56,090 bases of DNA from Elusimicrobiota bacterium (GTDB lineage: Bacteria; Elusimicrobiota; Elusimicrobia; UBA1565; UBA9628): NCBI GenBank assembly GCA_030696455.1, contig JAUYSH010000070.1, positions 1-56,090 on the forward strand. Reading direction: 5' to 3'. Below, piece after piece: positions 31,694-50,699 of this stretch. The notes beneath the pieces are model-generated. The model was not told the origin of the DNA. It ran no database searches and saw only the letters and a list, made by a program, of their open reading frames with translations. Made by a program: the position numbers and the translations under genes. Every line of letters begins with the position of its first letter. The first letter of the stretch is position 1.

Positions 31694-31712
31694 ACAGTTT
31701 CCGGAAGCAGTT
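31693..31712. repeat. CTGTTTCCGGAAACAG-family palindrome between convergent stops
   Basis: GACAGTTTCCGGAAGCAGTT matches 17 of 20 positions of the extended palindrome. It fills exactly the gap between the stop codons of the XdhC-MobA and GreA/B-like genes. Confidence 0.65.
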
Positions 31713-43153: not shown

Positions 43154-46100
43154 TTAGGCGCCGGACTTGCGGCGGTTCTCGAGGTCGCGCAGCTTCTGCT
43201 CGTAATCCTTGCGCAGGGCCTCGCGCTCCTCGGCGAGCTTGCGCAGCTTGTCGTCGAACTGGGAGGCGTACTCGATCTTCGCCATGTTGAGCTCCTGGCG
43301 AAGGCGCCGCTCCTGCTCGCCGTAGCGCTCCGAGATCTCGGCCTCCTTCTGCGCGAGCAATGAGCCCTGGCGGGTCTTCTCGGCCTCGAGCTCCTTGACG
43401 CGCGCCTCGTGAGCGGCGAGCAGGGACTCGCGCTCCGAGCCGAGCCCGCTCTCGAGCTCCCGGCGGCGGCGCTCGAAGTCGTCCTCGAGCTTGGCGCGGC
43501 GCTCGACGAAGGACTTCTCCAGGTCGCGGCGGCGCAGCTCGGCGGCGGCCTCGCGGCGCTCGGACTCCTCGCGCAGCGCGGTCGTCTCGCGTTCGGTGGC
43601 CTCGCGGACCTTGAGGCGCAGCGCCTCCTCGCGCTCGCGCAGGGAATGCTCGAACTCGGCGCGCGCCCTCGCGGCCTGCTCCTCGTAGGCCGCGATCAGC
43701 TCGCGCTCCTTGGCGATCAGCGCGGCGTCGGTCTCCTTCATCCGGCCGCGCAGCGCCTCCTCCACCAGCCGCTCTCGCTGCGCGAGAGCCGCCTCTAACT
43801 CGCGGCGGCGCTGCTGCAGCTCCACGTCGCGCTCGTCCTCCCACTGCTTGCGCTCGCGCTCCATCTGGTCGCGCTGGGCCTTGAGCCAGCTCGCCTCGCG
43901 GCGGCTGAGCTCCTCCTGCAGCTCGCTCTCCTTGCGGATCCAGGCCTGCTGCAAGGCGGACTCGGCGCGGGCGAGCTCGGCCATGCGCTCGTCGATGGCC
44001 TTCTGCATGCGCCCCTCGATGTCGGCGCGCATGGCCTGCGCGGCGGCTTCGCGGTCGCGCGCCTCGATCTGCAGCTGCAGGCGCTGCGTGTCGAGCTCAA
44101 CCTGGCGGCGCTTCCAGGACTCCTCCTGGGTCGCGGCCTTGCGGGCCTGCTGGGCGTCGAGCTCGGAGACGCGCAGCTCGAAGCGCTGCTCGAGCTCCAG
44201 GCGCAGGGCGGCGACGGCCGCCTCCTTCTCGCGGAAGGACGCCTCCAAGCGCTCCCGCTCGGAGCGGAAGATGGTCTCGCGCTGGGCGGACCACTCCTTG
44301 TCGCGGGCCGTCCACGCCTGCTGCAGGGCGGCCTGCTCCCGGGCGAATTTGTCCTTGAGCGAAGCCTCCAAGGCGGCGGCGCGCTCCGCGAGCACGGCGC
44401 GCTCGCGGGCGATGGCCTCCTCGTACGTCTTGCGGTAGCGCTCCTCCTGGGCGGCGGCCTCGCTCTTCACCTGCGCCTCGCGGGCGAATGCCGCGTCGCG
44501 CAGCGCGCGCTCCTTCTCCGCGTAGGCTGACTCCAGGCGCGTCTGGGTCTCGGCCGCCTGGCGGCGCAGCGTCTCGCGCTCCTCCTCCAGCGCCGTCCGC
44601 TTGGCGTCGAGCTCGGCGGCGGCGACCTCCTCGGCATGCGCTCGCTCGGCGCGGGCGCGGCCCTCGGCCTCGCGCGCCAGCGACCCCTGCTTGGCCTCCT
44701 GGCGCTTGAGCTCGTCGTTGAGCCGCCGGCGGAACTGCTCCTCGAGGGCCTGCAGCTTGGCGTCGTGCTGGGCCTCGTGCTGGGCCTCCTGCTTGAGCGC
44801 CTGGTCGAGCAGCTGCTGCTGCAGGGCCTGGGCGGCGTCGTCGTGGGCCTTCTTCCAGCGCGTCTGCTCCGCGGTGAGCACCCGGCGCAGCTCGCCCTCG
44901 CGGGCCATGAAGCCCAGGGACAGCTCCTCCTCGCGCTTGGACGCGGCGGACTCCATCGCCCGGCGCTCGGCGGCGACCTGCTCGCCGAACTCCGTGCGCG
45001 CCCGCTCGAGCGAGCCGCGGTGTTCCTGCTGCAGCCGGCGTTCGCGCTCGGCCCAGCGGCCGGAGAACGAGGCGTCGATCTCCGCCTGGCGGCGGGCGAG
45101 CTCTCCCTCGAGCTCGGCCCGGGCCTTCTCGGCGGCCTGGATATCGGCGGCGCGCACGGCGGCCAGCTCCTCCTCCTTGACCCGGTAGCGGGCCTCGAGC
45201 TCTCCGCGCTCGTCCTCGAGGCGCTGGCGGCTCTGGGCGAGGCTCTCGCGCAGCTTGGCCTGATGGGCCTCCCACTGCTGCTTCTCGCGCTCGGTCCACT
45301 CCGTCTGCATCTGCAGGAAGCGCCGCCCGAGCTCCTCTTCCTTGGCGCGGTAATGGTCCTGCAGCTCCTGCTGCCGGCGGAAGAGCTCCTCCTCCTTCTT
45401 CTGGTTGGCTCCCTCCATCTCGCGCAGGCGCTCGTTAAGCGCGGCGTCGCGGGCGGCGTACTCGGCCTCCATCTCGGCGCGTTGGCCGGCCAGCTCGGCG
45501 CGGTTCTTGGCGAGGATGTCCTCGATGCGCTTCTGCTGCTGCTTCCAGACCTCCTTTTCCTTGAGAACCAGCTGATCTTGGAGCTGGTGGTATCTGGCGA
45601 CGAGCTCAGCTTCCTGCTTTTCGTGGTGGGCCAGAACGGCCTTATGCCTTTCCTGCAGCGACTCGTCGAGCTTGGTCTCCTTCTCGCGATAGTGCTCCTC
45701 GAGAAAGCGGCGCTCGGCTTCCAGGCGCTCCTGCAGCCGGCCCCATTCCTGCTCGTTCTTGTGCTGATAGACGCGGTCGAGCTCGGCCGTCCGCTTGGCA
45801 TGCTCTTCGTCGAGATGCCGGCGGCGGTCCTCGAGCGTATGCTCCTTCTGGCGCAGGCGCGCCTCGAACTGGGCGATCTTCGCCTCGAACTTCTCGCCGA
45901 GCGCGTGCTCCTCGCGGGCCAGGGCCTCGCGGTTGTGCTTGAGGAGGTCCTCGATGTCGCGCTCGTAGCGCCGCCGGAACTCGCCCTCCTTCGTCTTGAT
46001 CTGCTCGTCGAGCAGGCGCTGCTGGCTCTCGAGGTCCTTTTCCTTGGCGCGGATCGCGTCGGTCTGGATATTCAGGCGCTCGAGGAGCGAAGCCTTCGTG

Positions 46101-46621
46101 TCCGAGAGCGCCTTCTCCTGGTGGGCCAGCGCGGCCTGCAACTCGCGCTCGGCGTCCTGGCGGGCGGTCTTGACCGCGTCGATGACCTCCCGGCGCAGGC
46201 CGCCGATCGAGGCCTCGCGCGCGGCGATCTCGCGCTTGAGCGCGTCGATCTGCATCGTGAGCTGGAGGCGCTCCTCCTTTACATGCGCGTCCTGCTCGCG
46301 GGCCATCTCGCGGCGCAGCTCCTCGCGGAGCTGCGCCTCCATCTTCTTGTGGTCCGAGATGGACGCTTCCCACGCCTTGACGGTCTCGCGCCAGCGCTTG
46401 ACCGTTTCGTCCTTCTCGCGAGCGTCTTGCGTGGCCTCGTCCCGCGATTTGAGGGCCTTGGCGGACTCCTGCCGGGCCTCGGTGAGCTCCGCGCCGAGCC
46501 GGTGCAGGCGCTCGAGCGCCCAGCGCAGGGCCAGGCGGGCGGTGTCGAGGTCGTTGACCGTGGAGGGATCGAAGCCGTTGGGCTGATCGGGGGGCTGAGG
46601 GGGCTCAGGGCGATTATCCAT
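43154..46621 (-). CDS. Giant Glu/Arg/Ala-rich coiled-coil protein
   Basis: A 1155-residue soluble protein with no signal peptide or TM helix. A short Pro-rich N-terminus (MDNRPEPPQPPDQPNGFDPS) is followed from about residue 30 to the end by almost uninterrupted heptad-like helix rich in E, R, A, Q and L. Recurrent blocks such as KEEEL..R..EL, REKEAAV and ERERKQWEDERD occur every 30-45 residues. Such a rod could be about 150 nm long and would act as a cytoskeletal, SMC-like or spacer protein, but no ATPase or partner domain is present. The antisense strand also stays open for long stretches because of codon bias. Confidence 0.8.
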   Translation of the reverse strand: MDNRPEPPQPPDQPNGFDPSTVNDLDTARLALRWALERLHRLGAELTEARQESAKALKSRDEATQDAREKDETVKRWRETVKAWEASISDHKKMEAQLREELRREMAREQDAHVKEERLQLTMQIDALKREIAAREASIGGLRREVIDAVKTARQDAERELQAALAHQEKALSDTKASLLERLNIQTDAIRAKEKDLESQQRLLDEQIKTKEGEFRRRYERDIEDLLKHNREALAREEHALGEKFEAKIAQFEARLRQKEHTLEDRRRHLDEEHAKRTAELDRVYQHKNEQEWGRLQERLEAERRFLEEHYREKETKLDESLQERHKAVLAHHEKQEAELVARYHQLQDQLVLKEKEVWKQQQKRIEDILAKNRAELAGQRAEMEAEYAARDAALNERLREMEGANQKKEEELFRRQQELQDHYRAKEEELGRRFLQMQTEWTEREKQQWEAHQAKLRESLAQSRQRLEDERGELEARYRVKEEELAAVRAADIQAAEKARAELEGELARRQAEIDASFSGRWAERERRLQQEHRGSLERARTEFGEQVAAERRAMESAASKREEELSLGFMAREGELRRVLTAEQTRWKKAHDDAAQALQQQLLDQALKQEAQHEAQHDAKLQALEEQFRRRLNDELKRQEAKQGSLAREAEGRARAERAHAEEVAAAELDAKRTALEEERETLRRQAAETQTRLESAYAEKERALRDAAFAREAQVKSEAAAQEERYRKTYEEAIARERAVLAERAAALEASLKDKFAREQAALQQAWTARDKEWSAQRETIFRSERERLEASFREKEAAVAALRLELEQRFELRVSELDAQQARKAATQEESWKRRQVELDTQRLQLQIEARDREAAAQAMRADIEGRMQKAIDERMAELARAESALQQAWIRKESELQEELSRREASWLKAQRDQMERERKQWEDERDVELQQRRRELEAALAQRERLVEEALRGRMKETDAALIAKERELIAAYEEQAARARAEFEHSLREREEALRLKVREATERETTALREESERREAAAELRRRDLEKSFVERRAKLEDDFERRRRELESGLGSERESLLAAHEARVKELEAEKTRQGSLLAQKEAEISERYGEQERRLRQELNMAKIEYASQFDDKLRKLAEEREALRKDYEQKLRDLENRRKSGA

Positions 46622-46702
46622 GGTCGTTCGACGCGTCGGCGCCGCGCAAAGGAATAGTGCCGTTTTGCTGTTACGAATTTATGCCGGGAAGGGGGGCGGC
46701 GG

Positions 46703-46718
46703 CTGTTTCTGGAAACAG
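46703..46718. repeat. CTGTTTCCGGAAACAG-family palindrome
   Basis: CTGTTTCTGGAAACAG, 15 of 16 matches, between the coiled-coil start and the SUMF1-like stop. Confidence 0.7.
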
Positions 46719-46738
46719 TTCTCCCCGGGGCATCATGC

Positions 46739-47530
46739 TCATCGGACGAGGCGCAAGCCGAGCCCGGGATCCGCAGCGTGATGCGTCGAGACGTTCCGCC
46801 ACGTCACGTGAAAATAGTCCTGTTGACCCCAGGCGCTCCCCCGGATGACCCGGTAGGAGAGTCCCTTGTCGAGGCGGGCGCTCCCATCGGTCGGCGCCCC
46901 GGCATAGGTGTTCTTGTACAAGTCCTTCGTCCATTGCTGGACGTTCCCGACCATGTCGCAGAGCCCCTGGGCGGTGTGGCCTTTCGGCTTGGAGCACACC
47001 GGCCACGACTCGCCGCTGCCGCACCCCGCGGCCCCGCCTTTGGGATGGATGACCGCGCGCTCGCAGTCGATCTTCTCGTCGTCCCACGGGTAGGTCCGAT
47101 CCTTGCCGGCGCTGCGCGCGGCGTACTCCCACTGCGCTTCGGTGGGGATAAAGCCGCCCGCCCATTCGGCGAAGCGGTCGGCCGCCGCCACGCTCATGCA
47201 CACGGCCGGTTGGTCGTCGCGGTCCAGGCGCTGCTTCCCGGGGTGGATGAGGCGCCGCTTGAGGCAGGCTGGTTCGGGCGTCTCGCACTTTCCGGCGGCC
47301 ACGCAGGCCTTCCATTGCTTGTTCGTCACCACGGACTTGGACATCTCGAAGGGCTTCAGCGTGACCTTGTGCGCCGGGCCCTCCATATCACCGGTGTCGG
47401 ATCCCATCATGAAGCTGCCTCCGGGGATCTTGACCCATTGGATGCCGGCGGGATTCGGAGCCGGCTTCGACGGGGCGGCTTGGACCGACTGCCAGGCGAG
47501 CAGAGGTATGAGCAATAAAACGGGGTTCAT
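46739..47530 (-). CDS. Exported SUMF1/formylglycine-generating-enzyme-like protein
   Basis: A 263-residue exported protein (signal peptide to VQAA, about 18) with an FGE-sulfatase domain: WVKIPGGSFMMGSDTGD, PFEMSKSVVTNKQWKACV, RDDQPAVCMSVAAADRFAEWAGGFIPTEAQWEYAARSAG, GLCDMVGNVQQWTKDLY, RVIRGSAW and DPGLGLRLVR. The copper-binding cysteine pair of true FGEs is not evident, so it is more likely a binding or structural member of the family. ATG 47530 has GAGGAGG upstream. Confidence 0.88.
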   Translation of the reverse strand: MNPVLLLIPLLAWQSVQAAPSKPAPNPAGIQWVKIPGGSFMMGSDTGDMEGPAHKVTLKPFEMSKSVVTNKQWKACVAAGKCETPEPACLKRRLIHPGKQRLDRDDQPAVCMSVAAADRFAEWAGGFIPTEAQWEYAARSAGKDRTYPWDDEKIDCERAVIHPKGGAAGCGSGESWPVCSKPKGHTAQGLCDMVGNVQQWTKDLYKNTYAGAPTDGSARLDKGLSYRVIRGSAWGQQDYFHVTWRNVSTHHAADPGLGLRLVR

Positions 47531-47621
47531 AGTGAGCCTCCTCGAGTCATTGGAATTGTTTTGGTCGCCGTACATTCAGGCGTGCGATGAGACAAATCTT
47601 CGCGGCATATTTTATGAGCTC

Positions 47622-47700
47622 GCTTAACGCCGAGGATCTGCCGCCGCGGCTACGCGAGTCCAACCAAACGAGGCCGCCGTCTGGTCAAGCCAATGGTTCG
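47622..47700 (-). other. attC-like recombination site 2
   Basis: Read on the minus strand: inverse core GCTTGAC (47700-47694), 79 bp in total, core GTTAAGC (47628-47622, matching GTTRRRY) preceded by ATCCTCGGC. Core and inverse core pair with one G-T wobble. The length and the ATCCTCGGCGTT context equal those of site 1. Confidence 0.6.
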
Positions 47701-47869
47701 GCAGAGGACAGGTGCCTACGCCGCCGTTTGTCGTGCTTGGCCGCCAACGAGGCCTAATCGCTCCAGTGCTCATTTCGAAACCGTTCCTCCGCGAGTGCTT
47801 CCGCCCAACTGTTTCCGGACACAGTTGTCGTTCAGCCTTAATGCCTTTGCCGTTAGCTGAGCTTCTTCC
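47701..47869 (-). other. Second cassette-like stretch, no convincing gene
   Basis: Between the two attC-like sites. It contains one palindrome copy and a 49-codon frame (start 47773) that runs through attC-like site 2 (MSTGAIRPRWRPS...). Such read-through frames are common in empty or decayed cassettes; I do not call it a gene. Confidence 0.35.
47807..47826. repeat. CTGTTTCCGGAAACAG-family palindrome inside the cassette region
   Basis: AACTGTTTCCGGACACAGTT, 19 of 20 matches. Confidence 0.75.
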
Positions 47870-47949
47870 GTCGAACGCCGAGGATGAGCGGCGGCGGCTA
47901 CTAAGATATTCCACATTGAGCCGCCGGCCGCTCTATCCATTAGTTAGGC
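47870..47949 (-). other. attC-like recombination site 1
   Basis: Minus strand: inverse core GCCTAAC (47949-47943) overlapping the cassette gene's stop. An internal hairpin GAGCGGC..GGCT/AGCCGCCGCTC has a 4-nt bulge. The right end is ATCCTCGGC plus GTTCGAC (47876-47870), a degenerate core. 80 bp in total. Confidence 0.6.
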
Positions 47950-48255
47950 GCCGCCGTTTCGCTGTGGACCGTTCTCATCCGTTTGAACGATGTTTCCGCC
48001 AAAAATGTCCGCCGTTGCTTCAGATTCAATTGGCTTCGGATGCCAATTCCAAACTCCTCGAACGCCTGCAAGATGAGTCAAAATAATTCGGTTGTCGAGC
48101 ATTTCGGTTAATGCCGTTTTGTCGTAATGCGCGAGGGCTTCCGCCTTCTGACAGACGTTTCGCAAAGCTTCCGTCGGAGTTTCTGCCGTCGTCTGCTCCA
48201 TGGCAAAAGTCCGATCTTCAAAATCGATTCGAACCGTAAATAAGTGCTTATTCAT
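47944..48255 (-). CDS. Cassette-encoded hypothetical protein
   Basis: A 103-residue soluble protein (MNKHLFTVRIDFEDRTFAMEQTTAETPTEALRNVCQ...) of no recognised family; it looks like a small alpha/beta protein. Its base composition is clearly lower in GC than all neighbouring genes. The ATG is 8 nt after a GTTAGGC core (48270-48264), and the stop TAA lies in the GCCTAAC of attC-like site 1. This is the normal layout of an integron gene cassette, so recent acquisition is likely. Confidence 0.7.
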   Translation of the reverse strand: MNKHLFTVRIDFEDRTFAMEQTTAETPTEALRNVCQKAEALAHYDKTALTEMLDNRIILTHLAGVRGVWNWHPKPIESEATADIFGGNIVQTDENGPQRNGGA

Positions 48256-48263
48256 TTAAGTGC

Positions 48264-48420
48264 GCCTAACGCCAATTCACTCGGTCAGTCTAACGCGGTT
48301 GGGTGAAAATTGTCACTGCTCGGATTATAAAGGGAAAATCAGCACTTCGCTAGGGCTACGCTAGGGGGAAAAGTCGTGAATCCTTGCAGGCTATGTCAGC
48401 CTAACCTAGCGCGGTTGGGC
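48264..48420 (-). other. Cassette boundary with paired direct repeats (attI-like?)
   Basis: GTTAGGC core at 48270-48264. Upstream (higher coordinates) are two copies of one motif, GTCAGTCTAACGCGGTTGGG (48284-48303) and GTCAGCCTAAC-CTAG-CGCGGTTGGGC (48395-48420, plus-strand reading), both containing core-like YYYAAC/GTTGGG pairs. No integrase gene lies on either side. Confidence 0.45.
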
Positions 48421-48497
48421 ATGGGACCCACGTTGAATGGGCCTTTCGTCAGCCGGCGTAGGGACCGAAGGCTCAGGTGCCCGATCGCCATCGGGGC

Positions 48498-48503
48498 TAT
48501 TCT
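48498..48503 (+). promoter_or_regulatory. -10 box (TATTCT) 6 nt before GTG 48510
   Basis: Leaderless arrangement for the CPBP gene; -35 not clear. Confidence 0.5.
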
Positions 48504-48509
48504 TAACCT

Positions 48510-50699
48510 GTGAAGCGAACCGCTGCCCTCTTCGCCCTCTGGCTGGCCCTCGACCCGCTCTCCGCCTCGGCCCAGGTCCGTGTCGGTGTCTCCGGGGCCG
48601 CCGCCGAAAGCTCCTCCGCCGTCAGCGCCGCCGCAGGCGGCGCAAGATCCAGCCCCATGCCGTTGATCCCCGCGGGCCTTTCTCTCCCTTCAGGCTCTCT
48701 TTCGCTGTCCCCGTCCCCAGTTCCTTCTATAAGCGTCACCCCGGTCGCCCTCCACGTCGCGCCCGTCTCCGCCCTCACAAAGCCGGTCTCCTCCGAGGTC
48801 CGGTCCCGCAAGGTCACCCCTTCCGTTGCCGTTCAAAAATCCGTCGCCGTTGCGTCCGTTCTTCAGATACCCGCCCGCACCGTCGCCGTTCCCCAGACCC
48901 GCTCGGAAAAGGCCGCCGCCGTCGTCCGCGACGAAGTCGCGAACTGGGGCTTAGCTCGTTCTCCACAGGACGGCGTCCTCGCTCCGTCATTCGCGTTATC
49001 CCAGACCTTGCTTTCGCCGAAAGCGGCGTCTACGCCCGACCAACGCCTCGACATCCCCGCGCCCAAGACCCCGGCTCTCGCCCCCGGCCGCCCGGCCCTG
49101 TCCAAGTCCCTGCTCATCACCGGCGCCGCCCTCGTCGGCGTCGCCGTGATCTCCGCCGCCGTCCCCGCTTTGATCCCCGCCGCCGTCGTCGCCTGGAAGG
49201 GCGCCTTCGCCTGGTCGGGCTTCGCCGCGATGGCCGCCTCCCGCTTCTGGCGCGCCCCCGGTACCGCCCCCGACGTGCCGCGCGGCCCTCCCGCGCCGTC
49301 CTCGGGCGCCCTGTCCTCGCTTAAGACCGCCTGGACCGCCGCGCGCGACAGCGCCGACGCCCAGAGCTCTTTTGAGAAACGCGTCGGCGGCTCCTCATGG
49401 TCGTCGTTCCGCGATTGGCTGTTCGGCGGCATCCGCACCGGCCTGTATTGGATGGGCCCCGCGCTTCTCGTGATGCTCGCCGGCGCCGCCGCCGCCAAAG
49501 GCGCCATCATGGCCTTCGGCATCAAGTTCGCGGGCACGGCCGGCGCCGCCGCCGGAGCCGCCGAGGCCGGCTTCGAGATGATTCCCATGAGCTACGTCCT
49601 CGGCAGCTTTCTTCCCATGGCCCTCGCCTCGCAGGCCGCGGGCCTCGCCTTGTTCTTCGGCGTGCGGGCCCTGGCGCGCAAGCTCGGCGCGGGCAAGGCC
49701 GCCCCCTGGCTCGGCGGGGCCGCGGCGCTGGGCCTGGCCGCGGGAGTCCTGCTCACGACGACCACGGCCCCATTCATCGTCGCCGCCACCTTGGCCCTCG
49801 AGGCGGGCGTGCTCTGGACCGCCGCCCGCTCCGATTCGTTCCTGGCCCCGCTCGTTCTGCGCGGCGTGCTGACCTTGTTCTCCATCGAGGCCGCCCGTCT
49901 CACGCTGTGGCTCGGCATGGGCTTCGGCGGCGCCCTCGCCGGCCTGCCCGCCGTGTGGGGCGGGGTCGCCGTCGCCGGACTCGTCGCCGTCGCCTTTCTG
50001 CTGAAGGCCCCCGGCCTGCGTCTGTCCGAGATCGGCAAGTGGTGGAACGCGGCGGAGCCCGGTCAGCGGCCCAAGTCGCCGTGGCGGGTCCTCTCGTCGG
50101 GACTGCTTTGGGGCATGATCGTCTACGCGGTCGGCGACCTGACCTTCGGGGCCGTCAACGCGCTCGCCCCCGGCGCCGAGCCCGCGCCCGACATCCTGGC
50201 GAAGATGCTGACCTCCGGCGTGGACCTCGTGCTCTACAACTTCGTCATCGTCGCCCTGCTCGAGGAGTACATCTTCCGCCGCGGCCTGTTCAAGATGATG
50301 AGCGAGCGCCTCGAGAAGTGGGGGCTGACCTTGGGCAAGGCCTTCTGGCTCGCGGCCGTCGGCTCGGCCCTGATCTTCTCCGGCGTGCACTACATCGACT
50401 GGGGAGTCCTGCTCGCCCGGTTCGGCATCGGCGACGCCGCGTCCGCCGCGGGCATGGGCGGCGCCTACGCGTTCTCGTGGGCCGGCTTCGCGGCGCGCTC
50501 GGTGCTCGGCGTGCTGCTCGCCTGGATGTACAAGCGCTCGGGCTTCCTGCTGATTCCCATCGTCGCCCACTTCTGGGCCAACACGATGGAGGGGCTCGGC
50601 CTCGCCTGGGGCTTCCCCGTCTTCCTCGCGCTCGCCGCCGGCGCGTTCCTCCTGTCGGTCTTCTACCGGCCGGGAACGCCTAAACCGAAGTTGTCCTGA
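48510..50699 (+). CDS. Exported CPBP-family intramembrane metalloprotease
   Basis: A 729-residue protein. A signal peptide (to ASAQ, about 22) is followed by a ~150-residue Ser/Pro/Val-rich low-complexity leader, then about a dozen hydrophobic helices. The CPBP (Abi/Rce1) catalytic motifs are near the end: LLEEYIFRRG (~584), FSGVHYIDWG (~626) and VAHFWANT (~686), supplying the Glu and His residues. The family cleaves prenylated or membrane peptides, often for bacteriocin self-immunity or signalling. The long secreted-type leader is atypical. Its last 20 bases overlap the convergent gene. Confidence 0.85.
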   Translation: MKRTAALFALWLALDPLSASAQVRVGVSGAAAESSSAVSAAAGGARSSPMPLIPAGLSLPSGSLSLSPSPVPSISVTPVALHVAPVSALTKPVSSEVRSRKVTPSVAVQKSVAVASVLQIPARTVAVPQTRSEKAAAVVRDEVANWGLARSPQDGVLAPSFALSQTLLSPKAASTPDQRLDIPAPKTPALAPGRPALSKSLLITGAALVGVAVISAAVPALIPAAVVAWKGAFAWSGFAAMAASRFWRAPGTAPDVPRGPPAPSSGALSSLKTAWTAARDSADAQSSFEKRVGGSSWSSFRDWLFGGIRTGLYWMGPALLVMLAGAAAAKGAIMAFGIKFAGTAGAAAGAAEAGFEMIPMSYVLGSFLPMALASQAAGLALFFGVRALARKLGAGKAAPWLGGAAALGLAAGVLLTTTTAPFIVAATLALEAGVLWTAARSDSFLAPLVLRGVLTLFSIEAARLTLWLGMGFGGALAGLPAVWGGVAVAGLVAVAFLLKAPGLRLSEIGKWWNAAEPGQRPKSPWRVLSSGLLWGMIVYAVGDLTFGAVNALAPGAEPAPDILAKMLTSGVDLVLYNFVIVALLEEYIFRRGLFKMMSERLEKWGLTLGKAFWLAAVGSALIFSGVHYIDWGVLLARFGIGDAASAAGMGGAYAFSWAGFAARSVLGVLLAWMYKRSGFLLIPIVAHFWANTMEGLGLAWGFPVFLALAAGAFLLSVFYRPGTPKPKLS

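Follow-up and report, generated by a model that had tools for sequence, protein, structure and literature searches.

The window, the whole stretch of 56,090 nucleotides that was analysed, corresponds to contig C33 in the genome of an uncultured Elusimicrobiota bacterium (4.0 Mb, 147 contigs). Between two genes conserved as neighbours in relatives, one encoding a coiled-coil protein (43154-46621) and the other an Rce1-like membrane protease (48510-50699), it contains an inserted segment (46685-48422, ends approximate) whose flanks could be aligned with the corresponding, integron-free region in the related genome G015. The segment carries two attC sites, a gene encoding a 103-aa ORFan protein, a second cassette in which no convincing gene was found, a gene encoding an FGE-sulfatase-domain protein and, at the protease end, a putative attI site with a Pc-like promoter. 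Regarding the protease leader (48422-48510), a conserved block, TGGGCCTTTCG ... GGACCGAAGGCTCAGG, was present in all five aligned genus members and looks like a structured RNA leader; an Rfam search gave zero matches across the window and only a non-significant match for this leader.

The attC covariance model (R1), which provides for pairing of the arms and for two extrahelical positions, was trained on 16 attC sites from the genome itself and its relatives, with zero window sequence. Applied to the whole window (E<=10), it detected two matches only, both on the minus strand: attC1 (47870-47949; 80 bp; 78.4 bits, E 1.9e-19), with intact arms and two extrahelical bases, and attC2 (47622-47702; 81 bp; 57.0 bits, E 2.1e-13), with hybrid arms and many broken pairs. 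The sites are spaced 168 bp apart and share the attC right end ATCCTCGGCGTT, of which the window has exactly two copies (47626-47637 and 47874-47885, minus strand), while the pattern of the window attC ends has zero further copies in the genome. As single-stranded DNA, attC1 folds better than shuffled sequences (z -3.8 on one strand and -4.1 on the other; none of 200 shuffles equalled it), whereas attC2 folds no better than its shuffles (z +0.4 to +0.6) because its two arms come from different attC types (GACCAG-A-CGGCGGC for one arm, GCCGCGGCGGCAG for the other). Foldable R and L arms with extrahelical bases are hence found in attC1 and lacking in attC2, whose homologue on contig C40 has correctly pairing arms and folds better than shuffles. 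attC2 is a recognisable, though damaged, attC with hybrid arms, and it is probably non-functional.

The gene of cassette 1 (47944-48255, minus strand) starts at 48255, 8 nt past the sequence GTTAGGC (48270-48264), and its TAA stop codon falls within GCCTAAC (47949-47943), the R'' core of attC1. Its G+C content is 0.49, compared with 0.685 for the window. The 103-aa protein matched none of the Pfam or NCBIfam families, relatives were absent from the GTDB contig scan and from plasmids, and no counterpart was detected in the 340 other Elusimicrobiota genomes except one weak partial match; its predicted fold is of low confidence (mean pLDDT 50). The sequence-only reading, which had proposed two attC-like sites with a common right-end context, foldable arms in the first of them, and between the cores a low-GC gene positioned in just this way, is borne out in each of these respects. 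An attC covariance model, the kind of check that it had suggested, scored both sites well over background, and neither background-level attC scores nor a 103-aa gene collinear in relatives, the two outcomes it had named as contrary to it, were observed. Its sites are real, although their lengths, given as 79 and 80 bp, had to be corrected by 1 bp each.

Cassette 2 (47622-47869, minus strand) is spanned by a 96-aa ORF which extends through both attC1 and attC2 and matches no family. The segment 47626-47900 shares 83% identity over 277 bp with part of the array on C40, where an integrase is present. This gene-less cassette belongs to a family that is repeated on contigs C33, C22 and C40 (47622-47702; L090:8559-8633; L011:14685-14765) and whose attC sites show arms that are hybrid or truncated; the family may spread by a route other than attC recombination. 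The cassette also contains a palindrome (47808-47825), one copy of the sequence ACTGTTTCCGGAAACAGT, which is dispersed genome-wide at 79 sites (reversed pattern, 0) and occurs in the window at 31694, 36670, 46702, 47808 and 52054, two of these copies lying just past stop codons. The gene encoding the FGE-sulfatase-domain protein (46739-47575, minus strand; PF03781, E 6e-48) is within the inserted segment and does not occur at the corresponding position of G015 or of the related genome G016. It is at most a candidate for a third cassette, given that the attC model found zero sites on its 3' side and that its G+C content (0.656) is close to that of the chromosome.

Upstream of the 103-aa gene, about 165 bp of the window could be aligned to the intI-attI regions of contigs C40 and C117, with z-scores of 13.8 and 10.6, respectively, relative to shuffled sequences. 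A first attI profile contained an integrase-less site, that of the related genome G003; because circularity was to be avoided, it was dropped and replaced by a sequence-only model (R2) trained exclusively on intI-adjacent sites, namely six attI sites of the genus, with the window excluded. The sole match of this model in the window lies on the minus strand at 48264-48354 (39.8 bits, E 2.1e-11), with GTTAGGC at 48270-48264 as the crossover, and the same six-site training set run with nhmmer gave E 1.5e-9 for the window, compared with E 6.5 for the best match in the reversed-sequence control. A Pc-like promoter (48324-48352, minus strand), composed of TAGCGA (48352-48347), 17 nt and TATAAT (48329-48324), points into cassette 1, and a -10 box at an equivalent position, 57-59 nt upstream of the crossover, is shared by the window (TATAAT) and every one of the six training sites. 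The attI site is identified solely by its homology and position, and on these grounds the window element appears to carry an attI site, as a complete integron would. By eye, an apparent second copy of a TAxxCTGACC-like motif is seen about 110 bp upstream of the copy at the crossover, in the attI regions of loci L009, L010, L011, L057 and L063 and in the window at 48400-48420; this upstream motif may be an integrase-binding repeat.

Regarding the integrase, neither a gene (TIGR02249) nor an intI remnant (tblastn) was detected in the window, in agreement with the sequence-only reading, which had reported no integrase nearby and had proposed a search elsewhere in the genome. Three intact integron integrases, called with TIGR02249 above the curated cut-off, are present on other contigs (C54, C117 and C40), and at all three loci the cassettes are downstream of intI on the same strand. 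The genome's IntI and the copy of the complete chromosome G010 share 59-72% identity with the C54 copy, and the C40 IntI aligns with the Vibrio IntI structure PDB 2a3v (E 1e-74) over the full catalytic region. In the GTDB scan, the closest integrases outside Elusimicrobiota were those of Nitrospira MAGs (58-63% identity; L139, L141, L142 and L146), a likeness hinting at integron exchange between the two phyla. Toxin-antitoxin genes are found between intI and attI at two of the three integrase-bearing loci, one pair being BrnT with a CopG/BrnA-like partner and the other MazE with PemK (L009:4531-5056 and L011:10467-11083), and might stabilise the integrase region. An IS110-family element (PF02371 and PF01548) lies directly after the GTT of attC sites (L011:12152-13640 and L087:13320-14823), also occurs at contig ends of C54 and C117 and at the start of C68, and has several contigs terminating inside it; the IS1111-attC group targets attC sites and this element is positioned likewise.

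The window element thus lacks the intI gene next to attI that marks a complete integron, and shows both properties by which a CALIN is recognised, at least two attC sites close together and no nearby integrase. The assignment to the CALINs made by the sequence-only reading stands as far as cassettes with no nearby intI are concerned, whereas its picture of a lone attC cluster was incomplete: the attI and Pc-like promoter are kept, and the region holding them (48264-48420) had been overlooked. Judged by sequence, the element is a real gene-cassette integron without its own intI and not a bare attC cluster, because its attI and promoter region is homologous to intI-adjacent attI.

Comparison of the same chromosomal locus in relatives showed that in G015 the coiled-coil and Rce1-like protease genes are adjacent, with no integron sequence between them in the alignment, and that the attI-like block is missing from this empty site. 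The same gap contains one attI and one attC in G016, while in G003 the protease gene is preceded by an attI with seven arrayed attC sites that continue to the contig end. An intI gene was not found at this locus in the window genome, G003 or G016. Blast comparison of the three inserts revealed mainly attC sites in common, attC1 having 93% identity over 75 bp to an attC of the G003 locus, while the cassettes differ, which would reflect either turnover after intI loss or a separate loss of intI in each lineage. These comparisons also bear on whether the cassettes were inserted off-target at a genomic site of the attG type, with no attI involved. IntI encoded elsewhere in the genome and the small number of attC sites would suit such an event, and off-target insertion is among the origins proposed for CALINs (PMC8618304); however, homology to attI and promoter extends over about 150 bp ahead of the insertion point, where off-target insertion would call for just a short GTT-like site, and the empty site of G015 lacks the attI-like block, which argues against host promoter sequence as the source of the homology. 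We therefore regard off-target insertion as improbable.

Across the genus, the attI model (E<=1e-3) detected 52 attI-like sites in 19 genomes, of which 33 have a same-strand attC no more than 3 kb downstream, and none has attC upstream or on the opposite strand. This placement refutes the notion that the attC matches are a dispersed attC-like repeat or chance palindromes; the genome does have a dispersed palindrome, described above, but the attC E-values range from 1e-13 to 1e-19 and attC matches lie beside intI in the correct order and strand, which leaves that explanation with next to no credibility. Six of the 52 attI sites are adjoined by intI, and 27 platforms in the genus consist of attI and attC without intI; for at least 22 of them the sequence extends 1.5 kb or further beyond attI on its upstream side, which is enough for an integrase to have been revealed. 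In the complete chromosome G010, a single intI is accompanied by a long array, and attI and attC occur without intI at two further platforms (2.05 and 3.48 Mb); fragmented assembly is therefore not the cause. In the window genome, attI matches were found on contigs C22, C130 (weak) and C141 (weak), each with same-strand attC sites downstream. Among 341 Elusimicrobiota genomes, IntI was detected above the cut-off in 30 and the attI model matched 17, comprising 13 genomes from the genus and four from its family or order, all four of which carry IntI; nothing was found at E<=1e-4 in the remaining 324, which favours the attI model being specific. At two platforms, 3' ends of intI are situated directly upstream of attI (91 aa at G004:C188 and 29 aa at G001:C418), and these remnants look like steps in integrase loss.

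Taken together, we consider it very probable that 46685-48422 is an integron that has lost intI and otherwise kept its platform of attI, Pc-like promoter and cassettes. An ancestral complete 'inverse' integron, with intI, attI and cassettes on one strand, would have been situated between the coiled-coil and Rce1-like protease genes, and its intI would then have been deleted, as appears half-finished at the two platforms with remnants. Loss of intI at the window locus, which keeps no remnant, is most likely and is inferred from those other loci. Pc would be expected to still drive transcription of the array's leading gene, which encodes the 103-aa protein. attI and attC1 appear usable, unlike attC2, and the three intact IntI of the cell could excise or replace cassette 1 in trans.

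Whether the intI-less integron is still active can be weighed on the same observations. We see an even chance that it is an inert fossil, in which an ancient loss of intI ended recombination and the cassettes are decaying as ordinary chromosomal DNA. The broken attC2, the intI remnants at two other platforms and two precedents, Xanthomonas for decay of intI (PMC12444791) and Treponema phagedenis for its loss (PMC3607928), agree with this, but attC1, attI and the -10 box appear intact, the cell has integrases, and two related species have different cassettes at the locus. Alternatively, the intI-less attI sites may be live, maintained as additional docking points on which few IntI act in trans, and sites and enzymes together would make up one distributed integron. 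The three intact integrases of the genome, the presence of the same attI and attC families at integrase-bearing and integrase-less loci, cassettes that differ among three species at a single integrase-less locus and the large excess of platforms over integrases all favour live platforms; against them, the cassette differences may be older than the loss of intI, attC2 has decayed, and several platform-bearing genomes, some of them incomplete, have no detected IntI, and we hold this alternative to be possible though somewhat doubtful. Near-identical cassettes common to intI-less and intI-bearing arrays were not found in the window genome, where the closest had 83% and 77% identity, which argues against very recent traffic. 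In the complete chromosome, near-identical segments were considered as candidates for recent cassette exchange and rejected, as they recur at several places or lie inverted to the array and are insertion-sequence-like. For the intI-less integron of the window, recombination of attI with attC1 by an IntI encoded elsewhere stands at about even odds.

The usual picture of an integron is one integrase, one attI and one array. The dozens of intI-less platforms set against few integrases suggest that one enzyme may serve many sites. That many scattered platforms of attI and Pc are kept functional and loaded in trans by few IntI is the boldest form of this idea and rather unlikely; if true, the cassettes of a distributed integron would be expressible from many loci at once. 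The platforms that have attI and lack intI make integrase use in trans a testable idea.

Regarding known systems, a CALIN is a cluster of attC sites without intI, for which off-target insertion, loss of intI and rearrangement have been proposed as origins (PMC8618304), and the window element resembles it in having at least two attC sites, cassettes and no intI nearby (PMC9024848, PMC8618304). Unlike a CALIN, it adds an attI and a Pc-like promoter, which are ignored by the CALIN definition (PMC9024848); attI sites outside class 1 are poorly described and go undetected by IntegronFinder (PMC9024848). Comparison within the genus makes attI recognisable and shows that most platforms are attI and promoter without integrase, and recognition of attI provides a handle on whether a CALIN originated by intI loss, off-target insertion or rearrangement. 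Elusimicrobiota are missing from the integron-carrying phyla named in a 2021 review (PMC8618304), and no report of their integrons was found in titles and abstracts of the open-access literature, earlier reports elsewhere being possible. In Xanthomonas, the intI gene at ilvD has frequently been inactivated, and CALINs occur at conserved loci (PMC12444791); the fixed chromosomal position across species, the decay of intI and the presence of arrays elsewhere too are shared with the integrons described here (PMC12444791), although in Xanthomonas one main platform decays, whereas here there are 27 intI-less attI and attC platforms at many loci of one genus. The 'inverse' integrons of Treponema have intI transcribed toward attI in the direction of the cassettes, and in Treponema phagedenis intI has been lost with attC sites still in place (PMC3607928). 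The integrons described here share this orientation, seen at the three intI loci of the window genome, and the apparent loss of intI with attC retained (PMC3607928); they differ in belonging to another phylum, in the several integrases of one genome and in the recognition of attI at intI-less loci. The integron of the window is thus a known kind of element in a new proportion, with many attI-bearing platforms per integrase.
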